Part shown: positions 45,597 through 64,000 of the stretch, in pieces | How the letters are laid out: each line of letters begins with the position of its first letter | Position numbering within the stretch: position 1 is the stretch's first letter | NCBI RefSeq assembly: GCF_021403115.1 | Contig: NZ_JAJSSH010000002.1 | Span: 434,001-498,000, forward strand | DNA: 64,000 nucleotides | DNA from: Sphingobium sufflavum | GTDB lineage: Bacteria; Pseudomonadota; Alphaproteobacteria; Sphingomonadales; Sphingomonadaceae | Direction: 5' to 3' | Translations under genes and position numbers: made by a program | Notes under the pieces: generated by a model | The model's database searches: none | What the model saw: the letters and a program-made list of their open reading frames with translations, nothing else | What the model was told of the DNA's origin: nothing

Positions 45597-45598
45597 GA

Positions 45599-46886: not shown

Positions 46887-48598
46887 TCAGCGATAGAGGA
46901 GCGTCAGTGTGACGGCTGTGGTCGCAATGACCAGTACAACCAGCATGCCCCCCATCCGCGCATAGTCGGTGAAACGATAGCCGCCAGGCCCCATCACAAG
47001 CAGGTTATTCTGATGACCTATAGGGGTGAGAAAATCCGAGGATGCACCGATCAGGACGGCGAGGAGCGCCGCGTCAGGAGAAACGCCAGCAGCCGCGCGA
47101 CATCGATAGCAAGCGGCCCCATAATCACGGCCGTCGCCACGTTGTTGAGGAATATCGACAGCAGCATGGTGACAGCGCAGAGCGCCGCGAGGACTATGCC
47201 TAGCGGCAATCCTTGAAGCGCTTGGCCCAGCCATTGTGCCACTATCGCCGCCGCCCCGCTTTCGTCGAAGCTTTGGCCCACCGGGATCATGGCTGCGAGC
47301 AGTACGACCACTGTCCAGTCGATCGAACGATAGATTTCGTCTGCAGGAAGGAGGCGCAGAGCTGCCAAGGCTGCGGCGGAACCCAGAAATGCGATGGCCG
47401 GGGATAGTCCCGCCAGCACGATTGACGCGATGGATGTGCCGAAAATAGCCAGGATCATTAAAGCTCGGCTATGGGCAACCGGCATCGGATCGAGCCGATC
47501 AATCTCAAGAAGGCGTGCGCGAGCAATGAAGCGGGCCAGATCAGGTGTAGCGTCGCGCAGATAGAGCTGGTCGCCCGCCCGAACGCGCATCCTGACAAGG
47601 GGCTGCCTCTCCCGCGCAACACGCGGACCAACCGCAACCACTTCGAGGCGGTCCTCGCTTTGTGTTCGCACCTCGTCATAGCCAAGCCCGATCAAGATCG
47701 AGCCATGCGCGACCGCGACCCGGGCCGTGACCGCGTCCGCCGAAGCAGCCAGATGGGCGGCGGTCTCCAGACCAGTCTTTTCCGCTATCGTCCATTGGTT
47801 AGCGCGTGAGAGCACCAGCAAGCGATCACCAGTCCTGATGCTATCGAAGACCTGTCGCCCTTCCCTGAAACGGGCAAGCAGCCTGGCTTTTGCGCTGCGC
47901 AATCCCTGAAGGAGATCGTCGCCATCGCACGTCTGTGGCACGTCCAGTTCGAATACCCGCCAGGGCGGCCGCTTCTGCTGTTCAGCGCTCTGTCTGACGG
48001 GAAGAAATCGCCAACCGAACGCAGCCAAATAGACCAGCCCTAGCAGCGCGACAGCAACGCCGACCGGCGTCATGGTGAAGAAGCCAAAGGGCTCCCCGAG
48101 TTCGGTTTCGCGGACGGAGGACAGGATGAGATTGGCTGGCGTGCCAATGAGCGTGGTCATCCCACCAAGGATCGTCGCAAATGCCAGTGGCATCAGCGTC
48201 GCTGTTGGCGGACGCCGTGAGTCGCGCGCGATCTCCGTTGCGATCGGCATGGTGATGACCAGAGCCGCAATATTGTTCATGAAGGCCGACAGGAGCATGG
48301 CGACGGCAAGAAGTGTCGTCAGTCGGAACAGGAAGCCGGCGCGCTCGGGGATGAGCCATTTCGCAATGACCGAGGCAATTCCTGACAATTCCACCGCACG
48401 TCCGACGACAAGGATTGCCGCCACGGCAAGGACCGCGGGATCGGCAAACCCAAGAAACGCTCTGGCTGGCGTGACGAGTCCGAGGGCGATACAAGCAAAA
48501 AGGGCAATGAGCGCCACGAGGTCGTGCCGAACCTTCTCGCTGACGAACAGGATCAAGGCCCCGCCAAGAATGATGCCGCTGAGCGCCGCCGGACTCAT
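46887..48598 (-). pseudogene. SLC13-family permease with two TrkA-C/RCK domains, frameshifted near the 3' end
   Basis: The N-terminal frame covers helices (VRHDLVALIALFACIALGLV, AFMNNIAALVITMPIATEIA), two TrkA-C-like cytosolic domains in the middle, and a second permease half (SIDWTVVVLLAAMIPVGQSF, LSIFLNNVATAVIMGPLAID). It then runs into a stop at 47051. The expected end (SPDAALLAVLIGASSDFLTP, IGHQNNLLVMGPGGYRF) is encoded in the next frame down to 46887. One base is missing at about 47070-47085; adding it joins the frames to about 570 residues, the usual length. The last membrane helices are thus lost unless the shift is a sequencing error. Members transport dicarboxylates, sulfate or similar anions with Na+. 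Confidence 0.82.
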
Positions 48599-48614
48599 GC
48601 TAAGTCCCGACTGC

Positions 48615-50183: not shown

Positions 50184-50537
50184 ACGGCCTCCTTGACCGC
50201 GAAGCGGTAATTTCTGGTGTCGGTTCGGCGGTACTCGCCCCTGTGACTTGCCGACCAAGATGCGTCTCATCCGCTGCAAGTCGCACCATTACGATAGGCG
50301 AGGTCGTCGCGCAGAGAAAGTGGATTGCAGCGTCGCGTGCCTCACCCACGCCTTCGACGTGCGGGAGGCCGGGCCGTGGGTCTTTGCCCATTTATCGTGC
50401 GGTGTTTGCGCCGAAGCCGCCCTGAGGCGCTTCTAAACGCTGCGGCATCCTCCGGGGGAATGGTCGGAGATCGATCGACCGTCGTTTGCCTTTCACATGC
50501 CTTGCGGGCGTGCCACCATATCGAGACAAGCAAAACG
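50184..50537. other. Junction region between the transport block and conjugation remnant
   Basis: About 350 bp with no recognisable gene. It must contain the leftward promoter for DUF389 and the breakpoint where the trbI gene lost its first part. No direct repeats that would mark an insertion were seen. Confidence 0.4.
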
Positions 50538-50804
50538 ATGGCTGCGCTTACATGGGCGCTCATCAAGGGCGTCGGTATCGCAACGCTTCTGGGCGTCGGG
50601 GCTGAACTCCAGTTCACCAGCGGCAACGACCTCGTGCAGGCGATCCGTCAGTCGACCCAGACCAATGTCGCGCGGGCCGGTGATCAGATCACCGCCCGCA
50701 ATCTTGACGTCCAGCCGAGCATCACGGTGCGTCCTGGCGCGCCCGTTCGCCTGCTGGTGCAGAAGGATATCAGCCTCCCGCCCTGGACTGTGGAAAGGGA
50801 ATGA
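50538..50804 (+). pseudogene. trbI: C-terminal remnant of conjugal transfer gene trbI
   Basis: 88 codons: LIKGVGIATLLGVGAELQFT, DLVQAIRQSTQTNVARAGDQ, then ITARNLDVQPSITVRPGAPV and RLLVQKDISLPPW. This is the conserved C-terminal end of TrbI/VirB10-type proteins, which line the conjugative type IV channel. A full TrbI has about 400 residues or more; the first three quarters are absent and no other trb gene precedes it. The fragment is followed directly by DUF2274, as at the end of intact trb operons. Confidence 0.8.
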
Positions 50805-50805
50805 C

Positions 50806-51024
50806 ATGACGGATATCAAGCTTGCGCGGTTGCCCGACCGCACACCCGTCAAACTGACGATCGCCATTTCCCCAGACCTCGCCGATGCCCTGGGCGTCTA
50901 TGCCGCGCTCTATCGGGACGCCTATGGTCGCGACGAGCCGGTAACCGAGCTCGTTCCCGCGATGCTGACGAGCTTTCTCGAAAGCGACCGCGCCTTCCAG
51001 AAGGCACGGCGGGAGCGGACATGA
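50806..51024 (+). CDS. DUF2274 protein
   Basis: 72 residues starting MTDIKLARLPDRTPVKLTIA, with ISPDLADALGVYAALYRDAY and TELVPAMLTSFLESDRAFQK. This short family is found right after trbI in conjugative elements of proteobacteria. It resembles a ribbon-helix-helix-type protein, so DNA binding is possible. It starts 1 nt after the trbI stop. Confidence 0.85.
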   Translation: MTDIKLARLPDRTPVKLTIAISPDLADALGVYAALYRDAYGRDEPVTELVPAMLTSFLESDRAFQKARRERT

Positions 51025-51028
51025 CCGC

Positions 51029-51370
51029 GTGGAGGAGCGCGAGCCTTTCCTGAGCCTCAAAGAGGCGGCTGACCTCCTCGGGGTCCATCCCAACACCCTG
51101 CGTGCCTATGTGCGGCAGGGCATCGTTCGCGGCGCCAAGCTGGGGCGATCCTGGCGCTTCCGACATGTCGACCTTGTTGCGGACGTCCGCGAGCGGTATT
51201 CTACCCTCGCACGGATGCAGATGAGTGCCGACGGACAGGAGGCAATATGGCACTCTGGAAACGTGCAGGTATCTACACTGTTGACATCACAGCCCCGGAC
51301 GGAAGCCGAATTAGACGATCTACTGGCACCACCGACCGGGAAAAAGCGAAGGAATACCACGACAGGCTGA
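51029..51370 (+). CDS. Helix-turn-helix protein, excisionase-like
   Basis: 113 residues from a GTG. FLSLKEAADLLGVHPNTLRA then YVRQGIVRGAKLGRSWRF is the MerR-like winged-helix of excisionase-type proteins. The C-terminal half is polar. It is directly upstream of, and overlaps by over 100 bp, an integrase gene, the usual xis-int order. It would direct excision of the element, but the integrase is broken. Confidence 0.75.
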   Translation: MEEREPFLSLKEAADLLGVHPNTLRAYVRQGIVRGAKLGRSWRFRHVDLVADVRERYSTLARMQMSADGQEAIWHSGNVQVSTLLTSQPRTEAELDDLLAPPTGKKRRNTTTG

Positions 51371-52314
51371 AGGCCGAATTGTGGGATCAGGCGCGATTGA
51401 AGCTGAAGCCCAAGCGTAGCTGGGACGAGGCGGCAGTCCGCTGGCTCAAGGAGAAGGCGGACAAGAATTCTTATAGGGACGATGTCCAACGGATCCGATA
51501 GTGGACTGGTCATTTGCGGGGCAAGACCCTCGACCAGATCGACCGGAGCCTGATCGACGGGTTGGTGACGAAGCATGTCCATGCCTCGGATCGCACGAAG
51601 GATCTCTATGTGGCGCTCATCCGCGCCATGTTCCGGCGGGCGATGCGGGAATGGGAATGGATCGATCATGTGCCCGCGTTCAAGACCTACAATAAAGGTG
51701 GGCAGGTCCGCGTACGCTGGATCACCGAGGAGCAGGCCGAAAAGCTGCTTCGCGAACTGCCCGACCATCAGCGTGAGGTGGTCGTGTTTGCGCTTTCCAC
51801 TGGTCTGCGCCAGGGAAATGTCCTTGACCTCACATGGGACCGGGTCCAGTTGGCCCGGCGCATGACCAGGATCGAGCATGGCGATACGAAGAACGGGAAT
51901 GCCTTAGGGGTTCCCCTCAACGATCTCGCCATGGCCGTCTTGCAGCGGCAAAAGGGCAAACACGAAACGCATGTGTTCACCTACAGGGGCGAACCGCTCC
52001 GGTCGGCGAACACAAGGGCGTGGCGCAAGGCACTGGCGAGATGCGGGATCACCAATTTTCGCTGGCATGATTTGCGGCACACCTGGGCGAGTTGGCTCAG
52101 GCAGAACGACGTGCCCACCTGGGTGCTTCAGGAACTGGGCGGCTGGAAATCGGAAACGATGGTGCGGCGTTATGCCCATCTGTCGGTGAAGCATTTGCAG
52201 CCCTATGCCGACCAGCTGATTTTTGCGCCGAAAATCCGGCCCCCGGAGAGGCGCAGGAAACTGCGGAAGGCGATGACACAAAATCACCCACACAGGCGCC
52301 CGAAAAGGGCCTGA
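51247..52314 (+). pseudogene. Tyrosine integrase interrupted by one in-frame amber codon
   Basis: AGGAGG precedes the ATG by 4 nt and the first 84 codons (MALWKRAGIYTVDITAPDGS...) form the usual N-terminal arm-binding part. Codon 85 is TAG at 51499-51501, followed in the same frame by TGG ACT GGT CAT TTG and the rest: core-binding domain, then catalytic domain with TGLRQGNVLDL (Arg), HDLRHTWAS (His-x-x-Arg) and LGGWKSETMVRRYAHL (nucleophile Tyr). Apart from this one codon, which was probably TGG (two Trp in a row), the 355-codon gene is intact. Reinitiation could give a catalytic fragment without the arm-binding domain. It ends 50 bp from the tRNA-Lys fragment it would have used as att site. 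Confidence 0.88.
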
Positions 52315-52363
52315 GGGTGGTCACTCGCAACGGCGTAAGATGTTGAATATAAAAGGAAGTTTT

Positions 52364-52413
52364 TGGTGGACGCACTTGGGCTCGAACCAAGGACCCGCTG
52401 ATTAAGAGTCAGC
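52364..52413 (-). repeat. tRNA-Lys(CTT) 3' fragment, attachment-site core
   Basis: Read on the minus strand: a 5-bp anticodon stem (GCTGA/TCAGC) with loop containing CTT, then variable region, T-stem CTTGG/CCAAG with TTCGAGC loop, acceptor strand TGCGTCC, discriminator A and encoded CCA. No D-arm or 5' acceptor strand is found beyond 52413, so it is not a complete tRNA gene. It lies between two integrase genes and is best read as the att core left by site-specific integration into a tRNA-Lys gene, whose complete copy should be at the far end of the right-hand element. Confidence 0.8.
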
Positions 52414-52570
52414 CAAAGCAGTCCACGGCCAGACCCCGCCTGACCACGAAACCGATTGTCTTGCAACGATTTATTGGGCACTACGAGGCGTGGCCGGGGT
52501 TGGCCACGCTGACCTCGGGACCGTCTTAACCGTCTTAATTCCCGTCCTTGACGGGTGAGGGAGCCGACCG

Positions 52571-53758
52571 ATGCCCGAAGTGACTGAGCTGACCGACAAG
52601 TATGTGAAGGGCCTACCGCCTGCGACCGGCGGGCAATATGTGGTGCGCGACACGCTCGCCGGTTTCTTCGTCGTGGTGGGCAAGCGCACCAAGACGTTCA
52701 CCGTGCAGTGCGACGTGAAGGACGACCTTGAACGCCGCCGGACCAAGAAGGTGGCGCTGGGGCAGGTTGGCGAGCTTTCCGTCGCACAGGCCCGCGCCAA
52801 GGCGAAGGCTACGCTGGGCGCATTGCAGGTCGCCGGCAAGTTCGAGGAGCGCCGGAAGGAATGGACGCTGGGGGAGGCATGGGACCACATGCGCGACTTC
52901 GACCTCCCGGCGAAGGGATCGCGCCCGCGCACGGTGGACGGCTACGAAAAGACCATCCGCCGCCTCATGGGCGATTGGCTGACCGTCCCGCTGCACAAGT
53001 TCGCGGACAAGCCACACCTCGTTACGGAGCGCCACCGGACCATCACCCGCGAAAACGGACCCTATGCCGCCAACCACTTCGGGCGCGCCTTCCGGCGGCT
53101 CTACAATTACGCTCAGGCCAAGCTGGACCGGACCTTGCCCGTCACGGCATGGTCAAAGGTCATCAGCTTCAACCGGGAACATCGCCGCAATACGGGCATG
53201 GGCGATAACGACCTTGGGCAATGGTTCGCCCAGCTTGCGGCCATCCCGAACGGAGTGCGTCGCGAGTTCCACCTCCTCACGTTGCTATCTGGGTCACGCC
53301 CCGACGCGCTGAGCAAGGCCGAATGGAAGCACCTCAACGTGAAGCGCCGGGCGCTGCATATTCCCGCGCCTAAGGGTGGCGAAGATCGCGCGTTCGACAT
53401 CCCGCTTTCCCGGCCCATGCTCGCGTCGCTCGCCCGCGCCCGTCGGGCGGGATGCAAGCTCGCCCCGCGCCAGAGCGAGACGTTCATCTTCCCCGCCGCC
53501 AAGAGCAAGAGCGGCCACATTGTCGAATGGAAGGAGGATCGGGCCGAGCTTTGCAAGTGGGGCGTCGATCTTCGCCAGTCCTACGCCATCGCCGCTGAAA
53601 CGCTGGACGTGTCGGAGCGCACCGTGAAGCGGTTGCTGAACCATGCGACGCAGGACGTGACGATGGGCTATGGTGATCGTGACCGTATGTGGCCCCGGCT
53701 TATTGCCGAACAGGAACGCATTTCCGCGCATTTCATGTCGCAGGCGAAGCGCAGTTAG
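52571..53758 (+). CDS. Tyrosine-type integrase
   Basis: 395 residues: an N-terminal DUF4102-like arm-binding domain (TGGQYVVRDTLAGFFVVVGK), core-binding domain at about 95-185, then catalytic domain with LLSGSRPDALSKAEWKHL (first Arg), DLRQSYAIAAETLDVS (second Arg), RLLNHATQDVTMGYG (His and nucleophile Tyr). The usual His of H-x-x-R is Val here (VDLR), seen in some active relatives. GGGAG lies 7 nt before the ATG. About 160 bp from the tRNA-Lys fragment, it presumably integrated this element there. Confidence 0.92.
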   Translation: MPEVTELTDKYVKGLPPATGGQYVVRDTLAGFFVVVGKRTKTFTVQCDVKDDLERRRTKKVALGQVGELSVAQARAKAKATLGALQVAGKFEERRKEWTLGEAWDHMRDFDLPAKGSRPRTVDGYEKTIRRLMGDWLTVPLHKFADKPHLVTERHRTITRENGPYAANHFGRAFRRLYNYAQAKLDRTLPVTAWSKVISFNREHRRNTGMGDNDLGQWFAQLAAIPNGVRREFHLLTLLSGSRPDALSKAEWKHLNVKRRALHIPAPKGGEDRAFDIPLSRPMLASLARARRAGCKLAPRQSETFIFPAAKSKSGHIVEWKEDRAELCKWGVDLRQSYAIAAETLDVSERTVKRLLNHATQDVTMGYGDRDRMWPRLIAEQERISAHFMSQAKRS

Positions 53759-53986
53759 TCAGTTTTCACACTGCACGACGTCTGACCTCGTTAAACTGCT
53801 TGCCGTGCTTGGCGTGGGTCCGTAAATGTTGAGTTGTCGCTGGCGCTCTGCGTCGCACACGGTTGCCGGATAGAATTGCCTGCGGGGGTTCGTTTCGTAC
53901 CGACAGAAAAGGAGACCGGTAGAGCTTCGCTCCCGGATGTCTGCACGGACGAACAGGGTCCGGGCGTCTGTCGGGTTAGAAGCGCC

Positions 53987-54259
53987 GTGTCTGAATTAGA
54001 TCAATCTTGGAGCCAGCTTGCCGAGCGTGTCGCGGGTATCGTGACGCGCCACTTGGCTGACCTCCCGCCCCGCCGCGTATCGCCGTGGTTTACTCCCGAT
54101 GACGCCGCCGATTACCTCCGGCTGACGCGCCGGGGCCTTGAGGACATGCGGGCGAAGGCCAGCGGTCCCCGCTATCACAAGGTCAACGACCGGGTTGTGC
54201 GCTACCATGTGCGCGACCTCGACGCTTGGCTTCTGAGCGAGGGAGGCGAGCGTGGATAA
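53987..54259 (+). CDS. Helix-turn-helix domain protein (AlpA/excisionase-like)
   Basis: About 90 residues from a GTG (MSELDQSWSQLAERVAGIVT). FTPDDAADYLRLTRRGLEDM then RYHKVNDRVVRYHVRDLDAW is the AlpA/MerR-like fold of phage excisionases and regulators. The frame is open upstream to 53834, but that part is unlike any family and the ribosome-binding site is weak at either start. It probably controls integrase or excision. Confidence 0.7.
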   Translation: MSELDQSWSQLAERVAGIVTRHLADLPPRRVSPWFTPDDAADYLRLTRRGLEDMRAKASGPRYHKVNDRVVRYHVRDLDAWLLSEGGERG

Positions 54260-54572
54260 CGCAAATACGCCCGCCCCGTGCAGGGGGGCGGGCGAGGGCG
54301 CTACTTACCGAGCCGCAGCCCTCTCTACTTCCCCGGAAATGGGCCAGCGCGAAATCAGCGAATTGCCTTTCGCTGTCGAATACTACGCCGAACGCGCGGT
54401 GCAGTTCGCCAATACCGTGTTCGATCTCGACCGGGAAGCTGAGGGCCTGGACTGGGCAAGCCGGGTGCAGGCTCGATGCGACGTTGCTCCGGCAGACCTT
54501 TTTCCTTGTTTGCCGCCGGGCATGATCGACGTTCTTCGGAGCCGAGCCGAAAGGATGCTCGTGCATGGCTGA
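54252..54572 (+). CDS. Hypothetical phage protein, 106 residues
   Basis: Starts with GTG overlapping the preceding stop by 8 bp and overlaps the primase start by 8 bp, so it is part of a packed early operon. The first 30 residues are low-complexity; then GQREISELPFAVEYYAERAV and a helical C-terminus. No family recognised. Confidence 0.6.
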   Translation: MDNANTPAPCRGAGEGATYRAAALSTSPEMGQREISELPFAVEYYAERAVQFANTVFDLDREAEGLDWASRVQARCDVAPADLFPCLPPGMIDVLRSRAERMLVHG

Positions 54573-56964
54573 CGCGGACCCGCGCCCGGCGCAGATGATC
54601 GACGCCGCGATGGCATACATTCGCGGCGGCTTCCGCCTTGTGCAGCTAAAGCCGGGCGGCAAGCAGCCTGTCAGTGAGAAGGGCTGGCAGAACGCCAGCC
54701 CGGCGGGCCGCGACTTTGAGGGAGGGAAGAATATCGGGGTGCAGCTTGGCGCAAAGTCGGGCCACCTTGTCGATATTGATCTCGATTGCGAGGAAGCGCG
54801 GCATCTGGCGGGGCTGGAATGCTTCTTCGGGCATCTCCCGGCCTTCCGCCGCGCCAGCCTCCCGGCCCATGCCCCCGGCCATCGCCTCGTGGTTTGCCGC
54901 GATGCGCCAGACGAGTTTGTGCAATTCGGCTTCAAGGGGAAAGGCGAGGAAGAAGCCATCGCCGGACTGGGCTTGGCCAAGACGATGATTTTGGAGGTGC
55001 GGGCGGGCAAGTGCTACACCGTGTTTCCGCCGTCCGTAATCGCGGGCGACCCGCTAATCTGGAACGCCCGCGCCAACCCCGATGTGCCGTCGATGGATTG
55101 GGACGAGCTACGGTTGAAGGCGGGCCTGTTGGCATTCGCGTCGTTCGCCGCCGCCAACTACCCGGCGGAAGGCGGACGCGACAATTTCTGTATGCACCTT
55201 GCCGGGGCGCTGGTGCATCTTGGCGTAGATCCCGAAACCGCCGAGGACATTATCGCGGCAATCGTCGCCATGAAGGGCGACAATCCGCGTGACCGCCGGG
55301 GGAAGGCCATTGCATCGGCGGCGAAGCGCGAAGCAGGTGAGGCTGTAACAGGCGTCCCGGCCTTCCTTGACCATATCGGTATGAAGGCCTGCGAGAAGCG
55401 GGTGCGTGATTGGCTGGGGCAGGTTGCGCCCGACGCTGGCGACCCTGTGCCGCCCGACGCCATCATGCTTGGTCGTCCCGACCTCCACGCGGTCCTCGGC
55501 GAGATTGAGGCCATGCTTATTGCGAATAGTGGGCGGGTGTTCCGGCGGCACTCCGAACTTGCCCGTGTCAGCACCCTCGAAGAAGTGACCCTTGAGGACG
55601 GTATTGCACGCAAGGCCGGGCTGGTTGAATTGCGCGTTGCTTCCCCGGCATGGCTCGCAGTCGAGGCGAGCCGCGTCGGCACCTTTGCACAGCGCAACGG
55701 CGCAAAGGTGTCGCTGGTGCAGCCGCCGACCGCGCTGATGGGGATGCTTGGGGCGGTTGCCGACGAAAGCCGCTTCCCGCCAATTCGCGGCTTGTCGATG
55801 ACGCCGACGCTGTTGTGCGAACGACCCGGCTACGACCCCGAAAGCAAGCTGTTCCTCGCCTTCCCAGAAGGGATGTTCCCGCCTGGCAATATGTCACCAA
55901 CGCGCACGGATGCGGAAGCTGCCCTTGCACGGCTGGCGCATCCGCTGCGCGCCTTCCCGTTCGTGGACGAAGCATCCCGGTCGGTGATGCTCTCCGGGAT
56001 GATTGCCGCCGTGATCCGGGGGGAGCTTCGCACCTGCCCCATGCACATCTTTGACGCCCCGGCGGCAGGGACGGGCAAGACAATGCTGGCTGACATTATC
56101 GGCATTATGGGCACGGGTGTTTCGCCTTCGGGCGTGACGCACAGCGCGGACAGCGACGAAAACGAAAAGCGGTTGGTCTCCATCCTGCGGACTGGCGACC
56201 CGGTCGTGCTGTTGGACAACGTGACGACCGAGCTTGAGGGCGACTTCCTTTGCGGGATGCTCACCGCAGAAACCGTGCAGGCGCGCATTCTCGGACAGAG
56301 CGAACGGGTTAGGCTGAGCACTCGCGTCCTGATGCTGGCGACGGGTAACAACATCCGGGCGCGGGGGGACATGGCGCGGCGCGTCGTGAAGTGCCGACTT
56401 GATGCTCGGATGGCCAACCCCGACGAACGGGATTTCGACTTCAACGCCGCCGATGATGTGCGCGCGGATCGGCCCGCCTTGGTCATCGACGCGCTGACCG
56501 TCGTGCGCGCCTATATCGGGGCGGGAAAGCCCATCGCCCTCTCTCCATTCGGCAGTTTCGGTGATTGGGATTTGGTGCGTGGCGCGTTGGTATGGCTCGG
56601 CCATGCTGATCCCGCCGATACCCGCGCGGCGGTGAAGGACGACAACGCTGAGACTGAGGAGAAGGTCGAGCTTCTCCGGCTGCTATACGAGCATGTCGGT
56701 GTTGGCCGCCGCTTCACGACCTCTGAAGTCGGTTCGCGGGCCAACCTTGAACCATTGCGTATCGCCCTTGGTCGTATGCTGCATCGGGGCGAGTGGGACG
56801 GGCGGAGCGCCGGGCACCTCCTGCGGAGCAGCAAGGATTTCCCGCTACTGGGCCTTACGCTGCGGTCGAAGCTGAATGCCGCGAAGGCGCAGGCATGGTG
56901 GCTGGAAGGCGAGCCGGATGCGGCGTTGCTCGATGACCGGGAGGATGACTCATGCCCCTTCTAG
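54565..56964 (+). CDS. Bifunctional DNA primase/polymerase with helicase-type ATPase domain
   Basis: 799 residues. The N-terminal prim-pol domain (about 1-215) has GFRLVQLKPGGKQPVSEKGW, the metal-binding Asp pair in HLVDIDLDCEEA, APGHRLVVCRD and TMILEVRAGKCYTVFPPS. The C-terminal ATPase has Walker A in FDAPAAGTGKTMLADIIG, a B-like VVLLDNVTTELEGD and LMLATGNNIRARGDMARR as sensor and arginine-finger region. Such fusions start and unwind replication in P4-like satellites and plasmids, acting without host DnaG. It implies that the element replicates autonomously after excision. Confidence 0.9.
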   Translation: MADADPRPAQMIDAAMAYIRGGFRLVQLKPGGKQPVSEKGWQNASPAGRDFEGGKNIGVQLGAKSGHLVDIDLDCEEARHLAGLECFFGHLPAFRRASLPAHAPGHRLVVCRDAPDEFVQFGFKGKGEEEAIAGLGLAKTMILEVRAGKCYTVFPPSVIAGDPLIWNARANPDVPSMDWDELRLKAGLLAFASFAAANYPAEGGRDNFCMHLAGALVHLGVDPETAEDIIAAIVAMKGDNPRDRRGKAIASAAKREAGEAVTGVPAFLDHIGMKACEKRVRDWLGQVAPDAGDPVPPDAIMLGRPDLHAVLGEIEAMLIANSGRVFRRHSELARVSTLEEVTLEDGIARKAGLVELRVASPAWLAVEASRVGTFAQRNGAKVSLVQPPTALMGMLGAVADESRFPPIRGLSMTPTLLCERPGYDPESKLFLAFPEGMFPPGNMSPTRTDAEAALARLAHPLRAFPFVDEASRSVMLSGMIAAVIRGELRTCPMHIFDAPAAGTGKTMLADIIGIMGTGVSPSGVTHSADSDENEKRLVSILRTGDPVVLLDNVTTELEGDFLCGMLTAETVQARILGQSERVRLSTRVLMLATGNNIRARGDMARRVVKCRLDARMANPDERDFDFNAADDVRADRPALVIDALTVVRAYIGAGKPIALSPFGSFGDWDLVRGALVWLGHADPADTRAAVKDDNAETEEKVELLRLLYEHVGVGRRFTTSEVGSRANLEPLRIALGRMLHRGEWDGRSAGHLLRSSKDFPLLGLTLRSKLNAAKAQAWWLEGEPDAALLDDREDDSCPF

Positions 56965-57287
56965 ACCTGCTGCACGCATTCTTGATCTTACAGGGTTTCC
57001 CGGGTTTTCCGGGTTCTCTCCTAGCCCCAATCCGGTTTGGGTATGTTTCTGTTGTTGTTAACAACAACAAGAATAGGCGCGCGGGAGTAGAGGGTGGCGA
57101 GCCTCCCCGGGAAACCCGCGAAACCCTGCCTCCAGCGGCGGTAGCTCCGCCGATCGCGCCCTCGTGCGCGCTAAAAAAGGCACCTGCTGACCATCAATCA
57201 GCATCCCCACGCGCGCAAAGCTCCGTGCTGCCAGCGCTTCTTGGGCGGTGGCCACAATTAAGACGGCGAAACGGACGGTGATGACGC
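56965..57287. other. Non-coding gap after the primase gene, candidate replication origin
   Basis: About 320 bp. It begins with three closely spaced GGGTTTTCC-like units (56994-57016) and holds a 20-bp perfect palindrome. A plus-strand frame at 56952-57281 is open but its product is low-complexity and it is not called. The features would suit an origin or a transcription block between replication and packaging genes. Confidence 0.45.
57050..57069. repeat. 20-bp perfect palindrome
   Basis: TGTTGTTGTTAACAACAACA, two 10-bp arms with no spacer, in a locally AT-rich spot 86 bp after the primase stop. Candidate operator or initiator site. Confidence 0.7.
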
Positions 57288-57752
57288 ATGGAAACGGCTA
57301 TGGAACATAACATGAACAATGATGCAGCCTCTCCCGGCAACCTCCCTACGACGCGCGGCCATGACGGCGCGGTGACGGTCCACGCGCCCGGCCTCGCGAT
57401 CATCACTGACATGGCGCGGGGCGGGCATCCCACCAGCAGCATTGCCGCCGCGCTGGGCATGTCGGCCCGCGTCTTCCGCGAGTGCCGCAAGCGCCAGCCC
57501 GAGGTCGAGGAAGCCTTCGCCGTAGGGTTGGGGGGCCTCGAACACGAGCTTGTCCATACCCTGCTAGCGCAGGCCCGGAAGGGCAACGTCGTCGCCGCCA
57601 TGTTCCTGCTCAAGTGCCGCCACGGCTACCGCGAGACGGGCCAGACCGACAGCGCCCCGAAGATCGCGGTGCAGATCAACCTCCCCGGCGCGCTGGACGA
57701 ACGCGCCTACGCCAACCTCATCGCCTCGGAGGCCCGCCATGACGACGCCTAA
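57288..57752 (+). CDS. Terminase small subunit-like protein
   Basis: 154 residues. A helix-turn-helix is visible in HPTSSIAAALGMSARVFREC, followed by a helical core (EVEEAFAVGLGGLEHELVHT, AAMFLLKCRHGYRETGQ), the layout of phage TerS proteins, which recognise the packaging site. It overlaps the TerL start by 14 bp. The first of three closely spaced Met was taken as start; the ribosome-binding site is not obvious. Confidence 0.78.
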   Translation: METAMEHNMNNDAASPGNLPTTRGHDGAVTVHAPGLAIITDMARGGHPTSSIAAALGMSARVFRECRKRQPEVEEAFAVGLGGLEHELVHTLLAQARKGNVVAAMFLLKCRHGYRETGQTDSAPKIAVQINLPGALDERAYANLIASEARHDDA

Positions 57753-59124
57753 GCTCAGCCACCCTACGCCTTGGCAGGAACGGGTGCTGGCAGTGCCCGA
57801 AGACCTCAACCTTGCCCTGTTGGGCGGGCGCGGGTCGGGCAAGACGACGGCCCTCGCGCTGTTGGTCCTGCGCCACTGCGTCCAGTATGAGGACAAGGCC
57901 CGCGTCCTGATCCTTCGCGCGACCTACAAGTCCCTCGCCAACCTGTGGGATGAGCTTGAGGCGCTGTTCCGCGACGCCTTCCCCGGCGGCATCACCTCCA
58001 ACCGGGCCGACTTCGTAATCCGCTGCCCCAACGGAGCGGTCGTCACGCTGGGCAACCTGTCCGGGCAGAAGGACGTGGCGAAGTGGCAGGGGCAGGAAGC
58101 GAACCTGTTGGCGGTCGATGAGATCACCAACTTCACGACCTTGCGCCATATCAACATGCTCCGCGCCAACCTTCGCGGCCCGGCTGGCATCCCGACGCGC
58201 ATGATCGTGCTAGGCAACCCCGGCGGGCCGCTTCATGCGACCATCGCACGGATGCACGTCACGGGGCGCATCCCTTGGCGGCCCTATGAATTGGCCGATG
58301 GCTCGCGCTGGGTATATGGCCCGTCGACCTACATCGACAATCCGACCATCGACACCGAGCGCTATGCCCGGTCGATCATCGCATCGTCCGGTGGCGACCG
58401 CGCGCTGGCGGAAGCATGGCTGAACAACAACTGGTCGGACCTTGCGGGAGCGTTTTTTGCCGATGTGTTCGGCGATCATTGCATCATCCCGGACGATCCC
58501 GGTTTCCGGGTGCCGAGGGGCAAGGGGCATGGCTGGTATAGCTGTGTTGCGCTCGATTGGGGCTGGTCCGCGCCAACCGCCGCCGTGCTTGCCGTTCATG
58601 CTCGCAGGCCCGGTCTGATTGGTCCCGCCGGGCGGGCTTATCCGCAGGGATCGTGGATCATCGTGGACGAGGTGCATAGCGCTCGCACCGACGACCCTTC
58701 GCTGGGCAAGGGCTGGCCTCCCCAGATGGTTGCCGAGGAGGTGCTTGCCGCCTGCGAGCGGTGGGGCGTTCGTCCGCAGGGCGTTGGCGACGATGCGCGT
58801 GGATTGCAGAACGATACGCTGCTGGAACAGCTTGGCCGTCACGGCCTGCACCTCGTCAAGCCGCGCAAGGATCGCATCAGCGGCTGGGTGAAGGTGAAGT
58901 CCCTCATGGCCGCCGCCCGCGATGGCGACCCCGAAACCCCCGGCCTTTGGCTTTCCGAACGCTGCAAGTTCGGCCTCGAAACGCTCCCCCTTCTGCCGCG
59001 TGACGACGTGCGGATGGAGGACGTGGACACGTCTGCGAACGACCACTTCGCGGATGCCGTCCGATACCTCGTCAACTCTGACCCCCGCATCGTCACCTAC
59101 GGCCGAACGGTCGGCCATTACTGA
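57739..59124 (+). CDS. Terminase large subunit
   Basis: 461 residues. The packaging ATPase has Walker A in LALLGGRGSGKTTALALLV, Walker B in ANLLAVDEITNF and motif III GNPGG. The RNase H-like nuclease has Asp in VALDWGWSAPTAAVLAVH, GVGDDARGLQND and ANDHFADAVRYL. All catalytic residues expected are present, so it should cut and pump DNA. In a satellite with its own TerS/TerL, packaging would use helper capsids but its own pac or cos choice. Confidence 0.92.
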   Translation: MTTPKLSHPTPWQERVLAVPEDLNLALLGGRGSGKTTALALLVLRHCVQYEDKARVLILRATYKSLANLWDELEALFRDAFPGGITSNRADFVIRCPNGAVVTLGNLSGQKDVAKWQGQEANLLAVDEITNFTTLRHINMLRANLRGPAGIPTRMIVLGNPGGPLHATIARMHVTGRIPWRPYELADGSRWVYGPSTYIDNPTIDTERYARSIIASSGGDRALAEAWLNNNWSDLAGAFFADVFGDHCIIPDDPGFRVPRGKGHGWYSCVALDWGWSAPTAAVLAVHARRPGLIGPAGRAYPQGSWIIVDEVHSARTDDPSLGKGWPPQMVAEEVLAACERWGVRPQGVGDDARGLQNDTLLEQLGRHGLHLVKPRKDRISGWVKVKSLMAAARDGDPETPGLWLSERCKFGLETLPLLPRDDVRMEDVDTSANDHFADAVRYLVNSDPRIVTYGRTVGHY

Positions 59125-59136
59125 GAAGGACCACCC

Positions 59137-59949
59137 ATGCTTGACGAAATGACCCCTGTTCGCGCGGATGTCCCGCTCGATTATCACCCGGACAGCCTCT
59201 TGGGCGTCGCATCGGCACTCAACCAGCCCGATACGCTGGGCTTGTCCGCACTGTCGTCCGCCCGTGAGGCGCTGCGCCTTTGTTATGACAATTTCGGACG
59301 GCTGAACGATGCCGAGCGGGATTTGCAGGCGGCGGCGGAACCTGCCGTCCGTCGCCAGCATCCCGTCGCAGGATCGGCGCATACCGACGTCACTGACAAT
59401 GTCCGCATGGTGCGCGGCAAGCCGACGCGGATCGTGGACGCCGAAGAGTTCATCGACGCCGCTGACCGGGCATTCCAGCGCATTGCCCCGGCGGTGGATC
59501 GGCGCGTTACCGAGTTGAAGGGCTACCGCACGACGCTGGAAGGCCGCGTAGCGGCGGCCATCGACAACCCTTCCCGGAAGTCCCCGGAAGGACTGTCGCT
59601 GGCGAGTGAGGTCCGCGCACACCTCAAGGCCATGAAGCGCCCGGATCAGCGGACGCAGTTCGTGGCGGCGGCGCTGGCGCAGGGCGACAAGGCAACTGTG
59701 GCGGCAGTCATTCATGCCCCCGCGTTCCTCTCCGGCATGACCGACGAAACTCACGCCGCAATCCGCAAGGCTGCGACGGAAAAGTTCGCGCCGGTCGATA
59801 GTGCCCAGCTTGCCGCGACCGACGCCGCACTGGTGAAGGTCATGGCGGCGGGCAGTGCGGTGACGCGCCGCTTTGCGGATGTGCTGGCCATGCGGCAGTC
59901 ACCGCTGATCCGCGCGGGCCGCAGTCTCAACGCATTGCGGGAGGGCTGA
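59137..59949 (+). CDS. Hypothetical phage protein, 270 residues
   Basis: Begins MLDEMTPVRADVPLDYHPDS, 12 bp after the terL stop with GAAGGA upstream. Mostly helical and Ala-rich; long stretches (SLASEVRAHLKAMKRPDQRT, DAALVKVMAAGSAVTRRFAD) suggest helical bundles. A portal protein is expected in this place in many phages, but this protein is too short and lacks portal-like features. Role unknown. Confidence 0.75.
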   Translation: MLDEMTPVRADVPLDYHPDSLLGVASALNQPDTLGLSALSSAREALRLCYDNFGRLNDAERDLQAAAEPAVRRQHPVAGSAHTDVTDNVRMVRGKPTRIVDAEEFIDAADRAFQRIAPAVDRRVTELKGYRTTLEGRVAAAIDNPSRKSPEGLSLASEVRAHLKAMKRPDQRTQFVAAALAQGDKATVAAVIHAPAFLSGMTDETHAAIRKAATEKFAPVDSAQLAATDAALVKVMAAGSAVTRRFADVLAMRQSPLIRAGRSLNALREG

Positions 59950-59952
59950 CCG

Positions 59953-60183
59953 ATGGCATGGCCATACACCTACACCAAGATCAACACGTTCCGGCGGGGC
60001 GTCCTGATCGCCTACACCGTCAAGGACGGCGTCCCCACCAAGGGCGAGGTCGAGCAGTATATCGACCGGACGTGGATTGGCAGCTTCCTCCGCAAGAAGA
60101 AGTATTGGCGGGCGAAGCGCCCCAGCGGGAAGGTCGTCGCTATCCGCGCGTGGACCAAGGAAAGCGCGGCGAGGAAGCTATGA
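59953..60183 (+). CDS. Hypothetical small basic phage protein, 76 residues
   Basis: MAWPYTYTKINTFRRGVLIA opens a strongly basic, aromatic-rich chain ending in WTKESAARKL. It follows the previous gene by 3 bp and overlaps the next start (ATGA). Unknown role, perhaps nucleic-acid binding. Confidence 0.65.
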   Translation: MAWPYTYTKINTFRRGVLIAYTVKDGVPTKGEVEQYIDRTWIGSFLRKKKYWRAKRPSGKVVAIRAWTKESAARKL

Positions 60184-60374
60184 GCGCGACCTATGCCGCC
60201 CTCAATCGGGTTGCCCGGAAGCAGGCAGGGGAGCGCCAGCGGGCGGAAGCGCGCCGCCTTGCTGGGCTTGCCGTCCGGGGAGCCTATGAGCCGCCGCGAT
60301 GGGTTCTCTCGCGGCTGACCCATGCCGACCGCATGGAATACGAGGCGGCGCGGGACGAGGCCCGGCGGCGATGA
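60180..60374 (+). CDS. Hypothetical small phage protein, 64 residues
   Basis: MSATYAALNRVARKQAGERQ; highly charged and helical. Both ends overlap neighbours by 4 bp (ATGA), supporting translation as part of a packed operon. No family recognised. Confidence 0.6.
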   Translation: MSATYAALNRVARKQAGERQRAEARRLAGLAVRGAYEPPRWVLSRLTHADRMEYEAARDEARRR

Positions 60375-60541
60375 GCAAGGGCGCGAACCCAAGGCGAGGG
60401 CGCTTCGTCAAGGGAGGCCCGCCCGGCTCGATTGTCCGCCCCTGCCTGCGTTGCCGCAGGCCGTTCGCCAGCGAGGGACCGCACAACCGAATGTGCGGCC
60501 CCTGCCGGGTTGCGTCGGTCAGTCCGTTTGAGCCGGGGTGA
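60371..60541 (+). CDS. Small zinc-ribbon phage protein, 56 residues
   Basis: MSKGANPRRGRFVKGGPPGS, then CLRCRRPFASEGPHNRMCGP with a further C: two CxxC pairs about 14 residues apart that would hold one zinc ion. Such short zinc-ribbon proteins are frequent in phage accessory regions. ATGA overlap with the preceding gene. Confidence 0.65.
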   Translation: MSKGANPRRGRFVKGGPPGSIVRPCLRCRRPFASEGPHNRMCGPCRVASVSPFEPG

Positions 60542-60546
60542 AGCAG

Positions 60547-60744
60547 CTAGTCGAGGCGGACAGATTCCACGGCGTCGTTCAACATCCGCGCAACGGCCTT
60601 CGCTTCCTCAAGGCCGGTGCCTTCGGGCAGGTTGAGCGTTACCCACTTGTCGCGCGGCAAGCCAACATCGCCATGCAATTCAAGAGCGACATAGCACGGC
60701 TGACCGACTTCCCGTTCCTTCACGGTTGCGGTGAAATTCCTCAT
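60547..60744 (-). CDS. Hypothetical protein, 65 residues
   Basis: MRNFTATVKEREVGQPCYVA; AGGAGG lies 6 nt upstream of the ATG. A small alpha-beta protein with LEEAKAVARMLNDAVESVRL at its end. It faces the plus-strand packaging operon and is co-translated with the gene to its right (ATGA overlap 60741-60744). Unknown function. Confidence 0.65.
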   Translation of the reverse strand: MRNFTATVKEREVGQPCYVALELHGDVGLPRDKWVTLNLPEGTGLEEAKAVARMLNDAVESVRLD

Positions 60745-61019
60745 ACTTCCTCCTGTTCGCACTCATCTGGGAAGTGCAGGCCTTCGATAAGCTCCGAATA
60801 GTCATTCGGGATGCCGAGGATCAGCCCTTCGAGGTTGCCACCATTATGCAGGTCGCATGCTTCCACAACCATTACGATCGCATCTGCAACGTCGCAGGTG
60901 TCCCAGTGCTCATAAGTTACAGTTTCCCACAACGCTTCGATTGCATCGCAGGCCCGTTCCCGCCTTGCGTCAATGACGGCAATCTCACGCCGTTCCTGCA
61001 AATTTACGACGATACCCAT
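60741..61019 (-). CDS. Hypothetical acidic protein, 92 residues
   Basis: MGIVVNLQERREIAVIDARR, then CDAIEALWETVTYEHWDTCD and an acidic tail ending DECEQEEV. GGAGG is 8 nt before the ATG. Strongly acidic small phage proteins sometimes mimic DNA and block restriction or other host enzymes; here this is only a possibility raised by the charge and by the nearby restriction genes. Confidence 0.65.
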   Translation of the reverse strand: MGIVVNLQERREIAVIDARRERACDAIEALWETVTYEHWDTCDVADAIVMVVEACDLHNGGNLEGLILGIPNDYSELIEGLHFPDECEQEEV

Positions 61020-61288
61020 AGCCGCTACCTCCATTTTCAAAGGCGCTGCCCCCGGCGGAACACAAATGACGCAATTATGCCGACGGCCAGCGCACAGGTT
61101 GCTGTGGTTTGGTTTCGTCGGCTCGCAGGGGCCACGCGGCACAGAGGGTCGCCCTGGGCCTGCAACGCGAATGAAGGGCTTGTAGTGTCGCCCACCGGCT
61201 CAGGTTGCCCCGAACGAATCAATCCTACCGGGGGTGGCACGGTGCGTTCAAGCAGTTTTAACGATACAGCCCGGTTGCGTAAGTCGCC

Positions 61289-62374
61289 CTAGACGGCGGC
61301 CAATGCGGCTCGGCAGTGCGTGATGGTGCCTTCCTTGGCGCGCATCAGGGCTAGATGCTTATTCAGCAATTCCGTGATTTCCGCCCAAGACACGCTGGGA
61401 GCAAGAGCAACGATACCGTCCGCGAATGCGGCGGATGAAACAAACGTCAGGTCAAAGCCCTTCGCTTCATACTCAGTGACGATAGACGGCAGGTTTTCAG
61501 TCGTCCGTGCGTTCGGGCCATAAATGAACATCATCGTTGAATGGCCACTTTCAGCGACCTTCCCGGCGGCGTGGTCGATATCCGCTCGCGTGAATGGTTT
61601 GTCTTTTGCCTCGCAGCAATAGCGCGCCGTTTTGCCATCAGCCTCGAATACGTCGATGTCCGAAATCTCGTTCGAGGACGCGCCGCTCTGGTTGGCGGGA
61701 TGCGACGCAACATGCAAATCGCCGCCTTGGGTTTTGGCAAGAAGCTCGAAAAGTAGTGCCACGCTCAGGGCAAGGCTTTCTCCTTCGCACGATTGCGCCA
61801 TGAGGCTTTCCAGCAATGACAAAATTGCGCGCTTGCTGGCGACCGCATCAAACCGGCCTTCCGCGAAGGTGACCACGCGGCTTTCGAGCCGAAGAATGTG
61901 CGCCAGAACGGCGACGAGCGCCTCATCCGCATTACCTTGGGCGTTCGCCATTTCACCTACGGCGATAAGGCGTTCCAGCGTCTCGCGATCCTTCCCCCGG
62001 CGCACGGCGTTCTCAGTGCTCAAATGTGGGAAGCGGGCGGGCTTGTTTAAGAATGGCTCGTTCGAGCCGCCAAGGCGTTTCTCCAGGACCGTCTGCTCGA
62101 ACGGGACCACCACCGAATGGCATAGGGACCGGGCATCGAAAGCACCTTCCAACGGCGAACCTGCCTGTAGCACCAATGGGTTGGCCGCCGGGTTGGTCGC
62201 CTTGGCAAGCATCCCGTTGAGCAGCACATATTTGTAGGTGAGGTGGGTATGATTAATGATTTGTTCGATCTTTGTTTCCATCGGCGCAGGGACGCGGTAT
62301 GCGTTCTGCCTAGCGCGTTCGGTGGCTTCCGCTAAGATCGTCCGGGCGCGTGCGCTATCAACGGAAATTGTCAC
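61289..62374 (-). CDS. Type II restriction endonuclease, SacI family
   Basis: 361 residues. The start RARTILAEATERARQNAYRV and central GNADEALVAVLAHILRLESR resemble the SacI-type endonuclease family. A PD-(D/E)xK-like site is visible: EISDIDVFEADGKTARYCCE with AK following (Asp, then Glu-x-Lys). Such enzymes cut unmodified DNA, SacI itself at GAGCTC; the specificity of this one is predicted, not shown. The start is GTG with AGGG 6 nt upstream, weaker than the ATG of the methyltransferase 13 bp away on the other strand, so methylase may be made first or in excess. Confidence 0.8.
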   Translation of the reverse strand: MTISVDSARARTILAEATERARQNAYRVPAPMETKIEQIINHTHLTYKYVLLNGMLAKATNPAANPLVLQAGSPLEGAFDARSLCHSVVVPFEQTVLEKRLGGSNEPFLNKPARFPHLSTENAVRRGKDRETLERLIAVGEMANAQGNADEALVAVLAHILRLESRVVTFAEGRFDAVASKRAILSLLESLMAQSCEGESLALSVALLFELLAKTQGGDLHVASHPANQSGASSNEISDIDVFEADGKTARYCCEAKDKPFTRADIDHAAGKVAESGHSTMMFIYGPNARTTENLPSIVTEYEAKGFDLTFVSSAAFADGIVALAPSVSWAEITELLNKHLALMRAKEGTITHCRAALAAV

Positions 62375-62387
62375 TCAAGGCCCTACT

Positions 62388-63539
62388 ATGAACTCAGTTA
62401 TCCAGATCGCCGACGCTATGAGCCAATCGCGCAGAGTTCAAGAGGACCTGTCCGCTGTTTCACTGTTCTCCGGCGCTGGCGGGATGGACATAGGGTTTCG
62501 CCGTGCTGGGTTTCAAATTGAGTGGGCGAACGATTTCGATAAAGCGGCAGTAGAAACTTACCGCCGTAACATTGGCGATCATATCGTTCATGGAGACGTG
62601 AATGATTACATTGACAATCTTCGCCAATTTAGTGGCGTTGATTGCCTTTTTGGTGGACCGCCATGCCAAGGGTTTTCGGTGGCTGGCAAAATGGCACTTG
62701 ATGATCCCCGCAGCCAGCTCGTGAAATCTTACATGCGGGCCGTCGAAGTCGTCCGCCCCCGTGCCTTCGTCATGGAAAACGTCAAGGCGTTAGGCACCCT
62801 CACCAAGTTCAAGCAAGTCCGGGACGAGCTGCGTTCCTATGCCAACAGGATAGGCTACCAAACGGAGTTGGTGATTTTCAACGCCAAGCACTTTGGTGTC
62901 CCTCAGGCGCGGGAGCGCGTATTCTTTGTGGGCTTCCAGAAAGCAGGTCGGATCGAATTTGACCAACGCGCCAAGCGGTATTTCCGGCGGGAAGTTTCGA
63001 CTTTGGAGGCTATCCGCCATTTGGGGGTGCAGGGGACCGACGCAAACCCGAAGACCTGCAACGCTGTGGTCACGATTGCCGAGCGCCCGGTGCTTCGGAA
63101 AAGCCCGTATGCCGGGATGATGTTCAACGGCCTTGGTCGTCCGTTGAACCCGAACGTGCCCTGCGCCACTCTCCCGGCATCAATGGGCGGCAACAAGACG
63201 CCCATCATCGACGAACGCCACTACTATGGTGACGGTGAGAGTTGGGTTGAGGCGTATCACGCGCATCTGATGCAGGGCGGCAAATCGTATGGGATGAACG
63301 ACACTCCGCCGCACATCCGACGATTGACGCTGGAAGAGGCGCGTATCCTCCACACTTTCCCAGAGGGGTATGACTTTGCCGGGGGCAAGTCCGCCACCTA
63401 CCGCCAGATTGGTAATGCCGTCCCATGCGACCTAGCGTTCGCAGTAGCGCAAATAGCAATCGACGTGTTGAGCGACGCGGCGATTGACGACGCGGCCATG
63501 CCGCAACTTGCGTTGCAGCTTGCCGCCACTGCCCGCTAA
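62388..63539 (+). CDS. DNA (cytosine-5-)-methyltransferase
   Basis: 383 residues. Motifs in order: SLFSGAGGMDIGFRRAGFQI (I, SAM), CLFGGPPCQGFSVAGK (IV, catalytic Cys), AFVMENVKAL (VI), FGVPQARERVFFVGF (VIII), then a variable target-recognition region, and YRQIGNAVPCDLAFAVAQI (X). All elements needed for C5 methylation are present. It is divergent from the SacI-like endonuclease with 13 bp between start codons, so each promoter must lie inside the other gene. It protects the host and stabilises the element. Confidence 0.95.
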   Translation: MNSVIQIADAMSQSRRVQEDLSAVSLFSGAGGMDIGFRRAGFQIEWANDFDKAAVETYRRNIGDHIVHGDVNDYIDNLRQFSGVDCLFGGPPCQGFSVAGKMALDDPRSQLVKSYMRAVEVVRPRAFVMENVKALGTLTKFKQVRDELRSYANRIGYQTELVIFNAKHFGVPQARERVFFVGFQKAGRIEFDQRAKRYFRREVSTLEAIRHLGVQGTDANPKTCNAVVTIAERPVLRKSPYAGMMFNGLGRPLNPNVPCATLPASMGGNKTPIIDERHYYGDGESWVEAYHAHLMQGGKSYGMNDTPPHIRRLTLEEARILHTFPEGYDFAGGKSATYRQIGNAVPCDLAFAVAQIAIDVLSDAAIDDAAMPQLALQLAATAR

Positions 63540-63548
63540 CGCGGCCTT

Positions 63549-64000
63549 GTGACCAAGGCCGACCAAATCCGCAGCCTTGCCGCCGAAGGCCTATCCGTTT
63601 CCGACATCGCGGCGAAGGTCGGCATTCGCTACCAGCACGCATACAATGTGTTGAAGCGTAGCGGCACGGTCGCCACCCCGCGCCCAGCCAAGACCCCCAT
63701 TGCCAGCAAGCCGCCGCTCGACGTGCAGACATTGCTCGACGCGGGCTTTCGCCGTGCATCCGAATGGAGCCTAGACGACGCGGGGTTGCTGGTCCTCACC
63801 GAGGCGCTGCCCAAGGAGGTGGGGGTTTATGCGTTCGCGAGGGACGGGATCGTTCTGTATGTGGGCGTGGCGACGATGGGGCTGGCAAAGCGCATCTATT
63901 TCTATGCCAAGCCGGGCGTGTCTCAGCGGACGAGCCTGCGGCTTAACGACACCATCCGGCGCGAGCTTCAAGCCGCCGCCCGGATCGAGGTGTTGATCGC
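63549..64000 (+). CDS. HTH plus GIY-YIG nuclease domain protein, cut by the right edge
   Basis: GTG start 9 bp after the methyltransferase stop. Residues about 1-40 form an HTH (RSLAAEGLSVSDIAAKVGIR, then YQHAYNVLKRSG). From about residue 93 a GIY-YIG nuclease begins: KEVGVYAFARDGIVLYVGVA, then GLAKRIYFYA and RLNDTIRREL. The rest is outside the window. GIY-YIG domains occur in homing nucleases, repair UvrC and some restriction enzymes; location suggests it belongs to the restriction-modification module. Confidence 0.78.
   Translation, partial: MTKADQIRSLAAEGLSVSDIAAKVGIRYQHAYNVLKRSGTVATPRPAKTPIASKPPLDVQTLLDAGFRRASEWSLDDAGLLVLTEALPKEVGVYAFARDGIVLYVGVATMGLAKRIYFYAKPGVSQRTSLRLNDTIRRELQAAARIEVLI

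Follow-up and report, generated by a model that had tools for sequence, protein, structure and literature searches.

The locus described here raises the question of how the 3′ half of a tRNA gene, lacking its 5′ half, came to be located between two integrase genes. It was analysed within a window of 64,000 nucleotides of the Sphingobium sufflavum genome (C23:434001-498000; the genome comprises 4.43 Mb in 37 contigs). Judging from parts that are backed by the sequence, i.e. a direct repeat, a complete tRNA gene, the gene content, the relatives, the ICE affiliation of the left piece and the missing third repeat copy, two different mobile elements have very probably used the same tRNA-Lys(CTT) 3′ half, with an ICE probably arriving first and an apparently intact 11.8-kb phage-satellite-like element arriving next.

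The tRNA-Lys(CTT) fragment and its complete counterpart

Read on the minus strand from 52410 to 52364, the DNA comprises the anticodon loop (CTT), the T-arm, the acceptor 3′ strand and CCA of a tRNA-Lys. A 50-bp 3′ part of this tRNA without 5′ half had been described in the first-pass annotation, which was borne out; the exact repeat is slightly longer with 52 bp (52362..52413, minus strand) and extends from the anticodon stem to slightly beyond the CCA. Searching with a 47-base core pattern and up to 3 mismatches gave one occurrence in the window and none in 100 shuffles. No tRNA was called by ARAGORN over the whole window, and with the Rfam tRNA model of Infernal the stretch 52367-52430 reached 27 bits, compared with a gathering score of 29, and had a shortened D-arm region. 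The site at 52362-52413 is therefore no complete tRNA gene, and the covariance-model check that had been proposed for an overlapping complete tRNA gave none.

The second copy of the core is positioned at C23:498184-498235 (window equivalent 64184-64235), just past the window edge, and sits in a complete tRNA-Lys(CTT) gene on the minus strand (C23:498187-498262; window equivalent 64187-64262; L003:1187-1262). The repeat-to-repeat distance is 11,822 bp, and the complete tRNA with identical 3′ half that was expected to close the right element was accordingly found 11.8 kb rightward. Past this tRNA the DNA is conserved within the genus; the gene there is presumably rodA, and one scanned frame past the tRNA had no Pfam match. 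The stretch 52362..52413 can be read as the common core of both elements, namely as the left end of the satellite and the former right end of the ICE.

Only two core copies were found genome-wide, which supports the explanation given above. Pattern searches of the genome with 20 bases (up to 2 mismatches) or 25 bases (up to 3 mismatches) yielded no further copy, and the other matches from a 101-base BLAST search of the genome were weaker and started within the tRNA. A possible third copy marking the left end of the older element, as considered in the first-pass annotation, was absent from these searches as well as from an ungapped scan of 66 kb leftward, in which the best match was 26 of 46 and 20 shuffles gave 24-29. 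The missing third copy is counted against the same explanation, due to the fact that the left border and the size of the older element are not fixed by a repeat.

The elements on both sides of the fragment

The features assigned to the left of the fragment are all encoded on the plus strand. A C-terminal stub of trbI (50550..50804, the start being that of the similarity; PF03743, model positions 103-188) is followed by a DUF2274 gene (50806..51024, with the listed ORF starting at 50497; PF10038, 2.7e-24), by a gene for an excisionase-like HTH_17 protein (51029..51370, the listed ORF overlapping the integrase gene start; PF12728) and by a gene for an ICE-type tyrosine recombinase (51247..52314), which was assigned from its translation, a PF00589 match after the stop and relatives at tRNA-Lys. 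This is the amber-broken integrase that had been reported: an in-frame TAG is present at 51499-51501 and the frame stops at 52312-52314, which is 47 bp short of the 52-bp repeat instead of 50 bp. The trbI stub and the DUF2274 gene are the only conjugation genes of the left element inside the window.

The sequence 50563-52413 aligns as a single piece, with 77% DNA identity, to another genome of the genus (G070), in which the end of the match is a complete tRNA-Lys. Just upstream, G070 encodes a full TrbI (418 aa) together with a coupling protein, a TrbB-type ATPase and a TrbE-type protein, and a second core copy is located 107 kb off (C1:116493 and C1:223711). Because of this match, the trb neighbours and the second core 107 kb away, the left piece is interpreted as the probable right end of a trb-type ICE. 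Among 94 genomes of the genus, 11 had a match to the ICE integrase, i.e. 10 besides the present genome; the gene adjoins a complete tRNA-Lys in five of these 10 (G070, G090, G025, G116 and G079), a 3′-half fragment in two (G105 and G017) and a different, partial tRNA-like match in three (G097, G032 and G030), so that tRNA-Lys can be taken as the proper site of the left integrase. Since the frames in G070 (366 aa) and G025 (363 aa) are open, the ICE integrase has intact relatives. In G025 the same integrase type is located beside TrwC- and TrwB-type genes without trb association; due to this company, which is counted against the best explanation, the integrase alone cannot tell the ICE type, which is told here by the trbI stub, and conjugative elements of different kinds are served by this integrase type.

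The older element is best described as a putative truncated ICE remnant, which has kept at least its last 1.8 kb and has lost its far end; the missing third copy fits such a truncation. Because the integrase is broken and the far end is missing, the remnant should not be able to excise alone any more. A second trbI-type gene was observed on another contig of 106.7 kb (G000:C5:79217-79729), perhaps a plasmid or a further ICE.

The similarity to G070 ends left of about 50,550, where it gives way to opposite-strand genes. The minus-strand block formed by them (42840-50279) consists of NhaA, a CLC channel, a 403-aa ORF without Pfam match, CitMHS and DUF389, and its G+C of 0.608 (42.8-50.3 kb) is the same as that of the ICE remnant. 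The part from 46900 to 50500 was matched in 36 of the 94 genomes, the present one included, and G090 and G028 have the DUF389-CitMHS part at another place, near a NhaA match. The NhaA-DUF389 block may be ICE cargo or a later neighbour. In the search for the lost left border via relatives, blastn of 20 of their stretches against this region gave one match only left of the remnant (L043), and no match there was obtained with the G070 DNA from the far ICE end; tblastx of the region versus L055 yielded mostly noise, and the integrase part alone was used, through blastn. The match in L043 (14118-14333; genome G001) comprises 217 bp at 72%, corresponds to DNA 11.5 kb beyond the left window edge and is located about 5 kb from the tRNA-Lys of G001. 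Additionally, the DNA of L003 at window equivalent 69218-70191 was found to match, in inverted orientation, the DNA left of tRNA-Lys in L044, L045 and L052 and also matches the far ICE end of G070, indicating a rearranged neighbourhood or two paralogues.

To the right of the fragment, the body of the satellite-like element occupies 52414..64000 of the window and continues to the complete tRNA-Lys. The intact integrase noted 157 bp to the right was confirmed at this distance from the core end (52571..53758, plus strand; 395 aa, uninterrupted) and is of the Arm-DNA-bind_3 type (PF13356; phrog_1, integrase). The general Phage_integrase model of Pfam was not matched, though PHROGs assign the protein as integrase, and this is counted against the best explanation. 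On the same strand follow genes for an excisionase- or regulator-like HTH_17 protein (53987..54259, with the listed ORF starting at 53834; PF12728 and phrog_66; present in seven of nine loci), orf106 without assigned function (54252..54572; tblastn match in five of nine loci), a primase-polymerase (Prim-Pol) of 799 aa (54565..56964; PF09250 and PHROGs primase families), the terminase small subunit TerS (57288..57752; phrog_309; nine of nine loci), the terminase large subunit TerL (57739..59124; PF03237 and phrog_2), the helical orf270 (59137..59949; after TerL in eight of nine loci) and the weakly conserved orf138 (59958..60374; tblastn match in three of nine loci). A SacI-like type II restriction endonuclease is encoded on the minus strand (61289..62374; PF09566, 1.2e-73) and a C5-cytosine DNA methyltransferase on the plus strand (62388..63539, with the listed ORF starting at 62256; PF00145, and TIGR00675 above cut-off). 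The ORFs between the repeats include some without family (56952-57281 and 60774-61292) and orf187, which adjoins the complete tRNA and has a weak match, far under cut-off, to an excinuclease UvrC model. The principal frames of the satellite are open.

Families of capsid, portal, protease or tail proteins were not found in 14 ORFs scanned with Pfam, ten of which were also scanned with PHROGs. The element thereby combines a size between the repeats within 7-20 kb, an integrase, a regulator, a replication gene and no structural genes found, the features given for phage satellites in general in excerpts of PMC13376191. For orf270 a fold of long, mostly confident helices was predicted (mean pLDDT 82). 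The best fold search hits had E 0.087 in the PDB and 0.044 among viral models, with nothing below E 0.04; the PDB list was led by long-helix proteins with TM-scores of at most 0.4, which were read as chance helix matches, and an assignment of function from the fold was rejected. When the two integrases were compared, the best local match was 24% over 130 aa (E 4e-4); with an ICE end on one side and a satellite-like element on the other, the claim of two unrelated elements on one tRNA site was upheld, the integrases being only distantly alike.

Relatives of the satellite-like element and comparison with known systems

When 33 candidate stretches from the genome collection and five from the viral collection were compared, seven of the former (L107-L113) and one of the latter (L114) had TerL relatives at 73-88%, and the closest named TerL records are from Alphaproteobacteria, mostly of Sphingomonadales type. 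In 397 genomes drawn from the family, TerL was matched in 10, at 86% or more in four (the present one included) and at 40-44% in six. Comparison with 50,697 phage records gave 518 matches for TerL, all below 60% and the best-ranked at 29%, as well as 10 matches for the satellite integrase of at most 27%. Megablast of the in-window satellite part versus phages and plasmids gave nothing, and the remaining 93 genomes of the genus contained no close relative of the satellite integrase (E 1e-40), which is counted against the best explanation.

All seven named records contain the trio TerS-TerL-orf270 and an integrase gene at the same end, the latter at 75-85% to the present one in three records and at 28% in two; Pfam recognises the integrase of the relatives in L110 and L111 only. 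The HTH protein was matched in five of the seven. A clear match to the present primase was found only in L108, and a DUF5906 protein is encoded at its place in L107 and L110, from which an exchange of the primase module is deduced. As complete tRNA, the far end carries tRNA-Lys(CTT) in L107 and L113, so that the family is found at this gene elsewhere too, tRNA-Arg(TCT) in L108 and L112, tRNA-Gly(GCC) in L110 and tRNA-Thr(GGT) in L111. Direct repeats of tRNA sequence flank both sides in five of the seven records, with lengths of 24 bp in L107, 45 bp in L110, 47 bp in L111, 18 bp in L109 and, with one mismatch in between, 25 and 27 bp in L113. On the integrase side, L108 has only a 12-bp match to the tRNA and L112 none of 11 bp or more, which is counted against the best explanation. 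From repeat to repeat, the six elements with repeats, the present one included, measure 10.0-12.0 kb, and the inner border is located at tRNA position 27 here and at about 31-32 in several relatives. In L109 (Croceicoccus estronivorus) the far end consists only of a 47-nt 3′ half of tRNA-Lys (15842-15888), a hint that another element may lie past it.

The stretch between orf270/orf138 and the tRNA is variable. Genes of restriction-modification (R-M) type are present in six of eight elements, and the set differs each time: SacI and C5 in the present window, SmaI and C5 in L107, an Eco57I-type methylase in L108, an N6_N4 methylase in L109, a C5-methylase with HNH in L111 and a D12 methylase in L113. 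The slot ORFs scanned in L110 (two) and L112 (three) had no family match. A tentative reading, to which we give somewhat less than even weight, is that the right element belongs to an undescribed alphaproteobacterial satellite family which encodes both terminase subunits without capsid and exchanges whole type II R-M sets in one tRNA-side slot, in addition to its primase. If this holds true, the element would bring its own packaging motor to helper procapsids.

The satellite is the less ordinary part of the tandem, with relatives recurring at tRNA-Lys, tRNA-Arg, tRNA-Gly and tRNA-Thr. The fragment fixes the exact borders of a small element with relatives in various Alphaproteobacteria, and most relatives examined carry a different restriction-modification set. 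Should they be satellites, they would act as mobile cassettes for defence, and their two-part terminase would make it possible to test directly how a packaging motor is supplied without capsid genes.

The hallmarks of P4-like satellites, psu, sid, delta and the P4 alpha primase, were absent among the matches at E 0.001 from the general Pfam and PHROGs scans. Further comparisons with described satellites were based on excerpts of the cited articles. A P4-like trait is the occupation of one place by a different system in each element, type II R-M included (PMC9122126). For packaging of P4 DNA, the terminase comes from the helper P2 (PMC10690885), whereas TerS and TerL are encoded here. According to the same excerpts, a PICI takes the large terminase from its helper and has at most its own TerS, from which the present element differs in encoding TerL, and a cf-PICI resembles it in possessing its own large and small subunits but also encodes capsid, maturation protease, portal and connectors (PMC10690885), none of which was found in the 14 ORFs scanned. 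The PICMI of Vibrionaceae share with the present element the int gene, an AlpA/HTH_17 protein, a primase, the lack of capsid-remodelling genes and defence genes near one end (PMC10803314), and the relatives L107 and L110 additionally share the DUF5906 protein. It was proposed that defence in one place of the PICMI varies per element (PMC10803314). PICMI are located at fis, have a DUF3987/DUF5906 primase and are described in a text that does not contain the word terminase (PMC10803314), in contrast to tRNA-Lys and both terminase subunits here; int and HTH_17 are present, and the primase matched Prim-Pol only. Among the open-licence papers listed, none dealt by title or abstract start with alphaproteobacterial satellites that have two own terminase subunits but no capsid, nor was this type found described with packaging genes and a variable defence slot. 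The comparison covered P4-like satellites, PICI, cf-PICI and PICMI, and the satellite is therefore only a candidate for a new type; marine families such as tycheposons and VEIMEs are named in an excerpt of PMC11389934.

Order of arrival and use of tRNA-Lys in the genus

Concerning arrival order, excision, helper use and defence, we infer the following course of events. A trb-type ICE with its integrase gene at the right end was probably the first arrival; it would then have lost its body and far end and acquired the amber codon in its integrase. The satellite would have recombined within the tRNA-Lys 3′ half, the crossover taking place somewhere in the shared stretch with its inner border in the anticodon arm, so that its own copy restored a complete tRNA at its right end and the displaced 3′ half supplied by the ICE stayed behind as a 52-bp fragment that borders it on the left. 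Its predicted excision kit, which comprises the identical 52-bp ends, the open integrase and the excisionase-like protein, would have been kept. Replication would be carried out by the Prim-Pol, TerS and TerL would choose satellite DNA for packaging, capsid and tail would be borrowed from a helper phage, and the type II R-M pair could protect the host.

An arrival of the ICE before the satellite is likely, because the ICE end is decayed (amber codon, truncated trbI, far end gone) whereas the satellite has its main frames open, as would suit the more recent arrival; moreover, nothing lies between ICE integrase and tRNA in the five of 10 other genomes mentioned above. The junction alone is mute on the order because the fragment has the whole 3′ half and is itself a possible target. 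Had the satellite taken the intact tRNA-Lys first and the ICE later entered the left-hand fragment, the final order would be identical. Such arrays do grow, as is seen from G105 with its three fragments along one contig, and yet the decay on the ICE side makes this sequence of events unlikely. In G105 the ICE integrase adjoins a fragment that has a short Arm-DNA-bind_3 frame and a transposase frame on its other side, and the complete tRNA sits on another contig; a further tandem is likely there. From the earlier statement that both elements used the same tRNA one after the other, the shared site was retained, and for the order we infer ICE first.

A different account would have both integrase modules arriving jointly as a single composite island that used its outer ends. 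Tandem composites are able to move as one unit (excerpts of PMC5704250), and in G017 an ICE-type integrase, a fragment, a satellite-like element with R-M and, 14.3 kb on, a complete tRNA-Lys are arranged in the same order as here, the interval encoding an Arm-DNA-bind_3 integrase, a Prim-Pol with PriCT_2 and DUF5906, a C5-methylase, an MvaI/BcnI-type endonuclease and a TerS-like stretch (39% over 84 aa). However, the G017 element is distant kin only (integrase 25%, no TerL match), so that a single composite inherited by both genomes does not account for the two cases, and the ICE-integrase match is absent from the 20-21 kb around TerL in all seven named records, which makes a joint arrival very improbable. 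Very little probability is likewise assigned to the right element being a decayed prophage. TerS and TerL are present as in prophages, and no capsid or tail genes were found, but a similar short gene set of 10.0-12.0 kb with TerL at 73-88% recurs in seven records at four tRNA types, for which independent decay is hardly the cause, and no full-length phage with a close TerL was found among the matching phage records. The reading of two separate elements, with the satellite-like one entering beside an ICE remnant, is preferred.

The tandem is another example of a known accretion process, and since tandem use of one tRNA is already known, the fragment itself is ordinary. Tandems of integrative elements at one site (CIME, ICE and IME) are described in excerpts of PMC5704250, in which prophages and satellite prophages are also named as tandem partners. 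From the features of accretion, a tRNA 3′ end directly repeated between the elements, a complete tRNA at the outer end and the occurrence of each element kind at tRNA-Lys elsewhere (relatives of the ICE integrase; L107 and L113) were observed here, and a third core copy closing the other element on its far side was missing. The closest likeness in these excerpts is IME_Sag2603_tRNAlys beside a decayed ICE in Streptococcus agalactiae, which shares a decayed ICE, a shared chimeric half-site, a second element, the tRNA-Lys 3′ end and integrases less than 30% identical with the present tandem (PMC5704250); the second element is an IME there, whereas it resembles a phage satellite here. Unlike in CIME tandems, the ICE is without its far end here and therefore is not a two-ended, cis-mobilisable element. 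The accretion of AICEs at tRNA-Arg in Streptomyces, as given in excerpts of PMC9513070, is similar in having several elements, different integrases and the trace of an ancient element, but AICEs are actinobacterial conjugative elements.

Throughout the genus, the tRNA-Lys region was matched in 93 of 94 genomes (E 1e-10), and 3′-half fragments, defined as matches starting at most 5 nt from the CCA end and stopping before the D-arm, were present among the matches listed in at least 26 of the 94 genomes, a by-eye union of 16, 13 and 5 genomes. Distances from fragment to complete tRNA on the same contig include 6.9 kb in G068, 8.2 kb in G089, 8.9 kb in G033, 14.3 kb in G017, 14.9 kb in G098 and 107 kb in G070. 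In the 8.9-kb stretch of G033 (L039:9924-18933), genes for Fic, a Mu-type transposase, a Ser/Thr kinase and a PP2C phosphatase were observed, and no tyrosine integrase was found in the four ORFs scanned; the contents of tRNA-Lys intervals thus vary widely. Where a spare tRNA-Lys copy exists, integration into one of the copies could be safe. Paired complete tRNA-Lys(CTT) genes, 113-135 bp from start to start, were observed in L037, L038, L047, L049 and L054, and four full-length tRNA matches are positioned consecutively at G024:C78:5547-5965.
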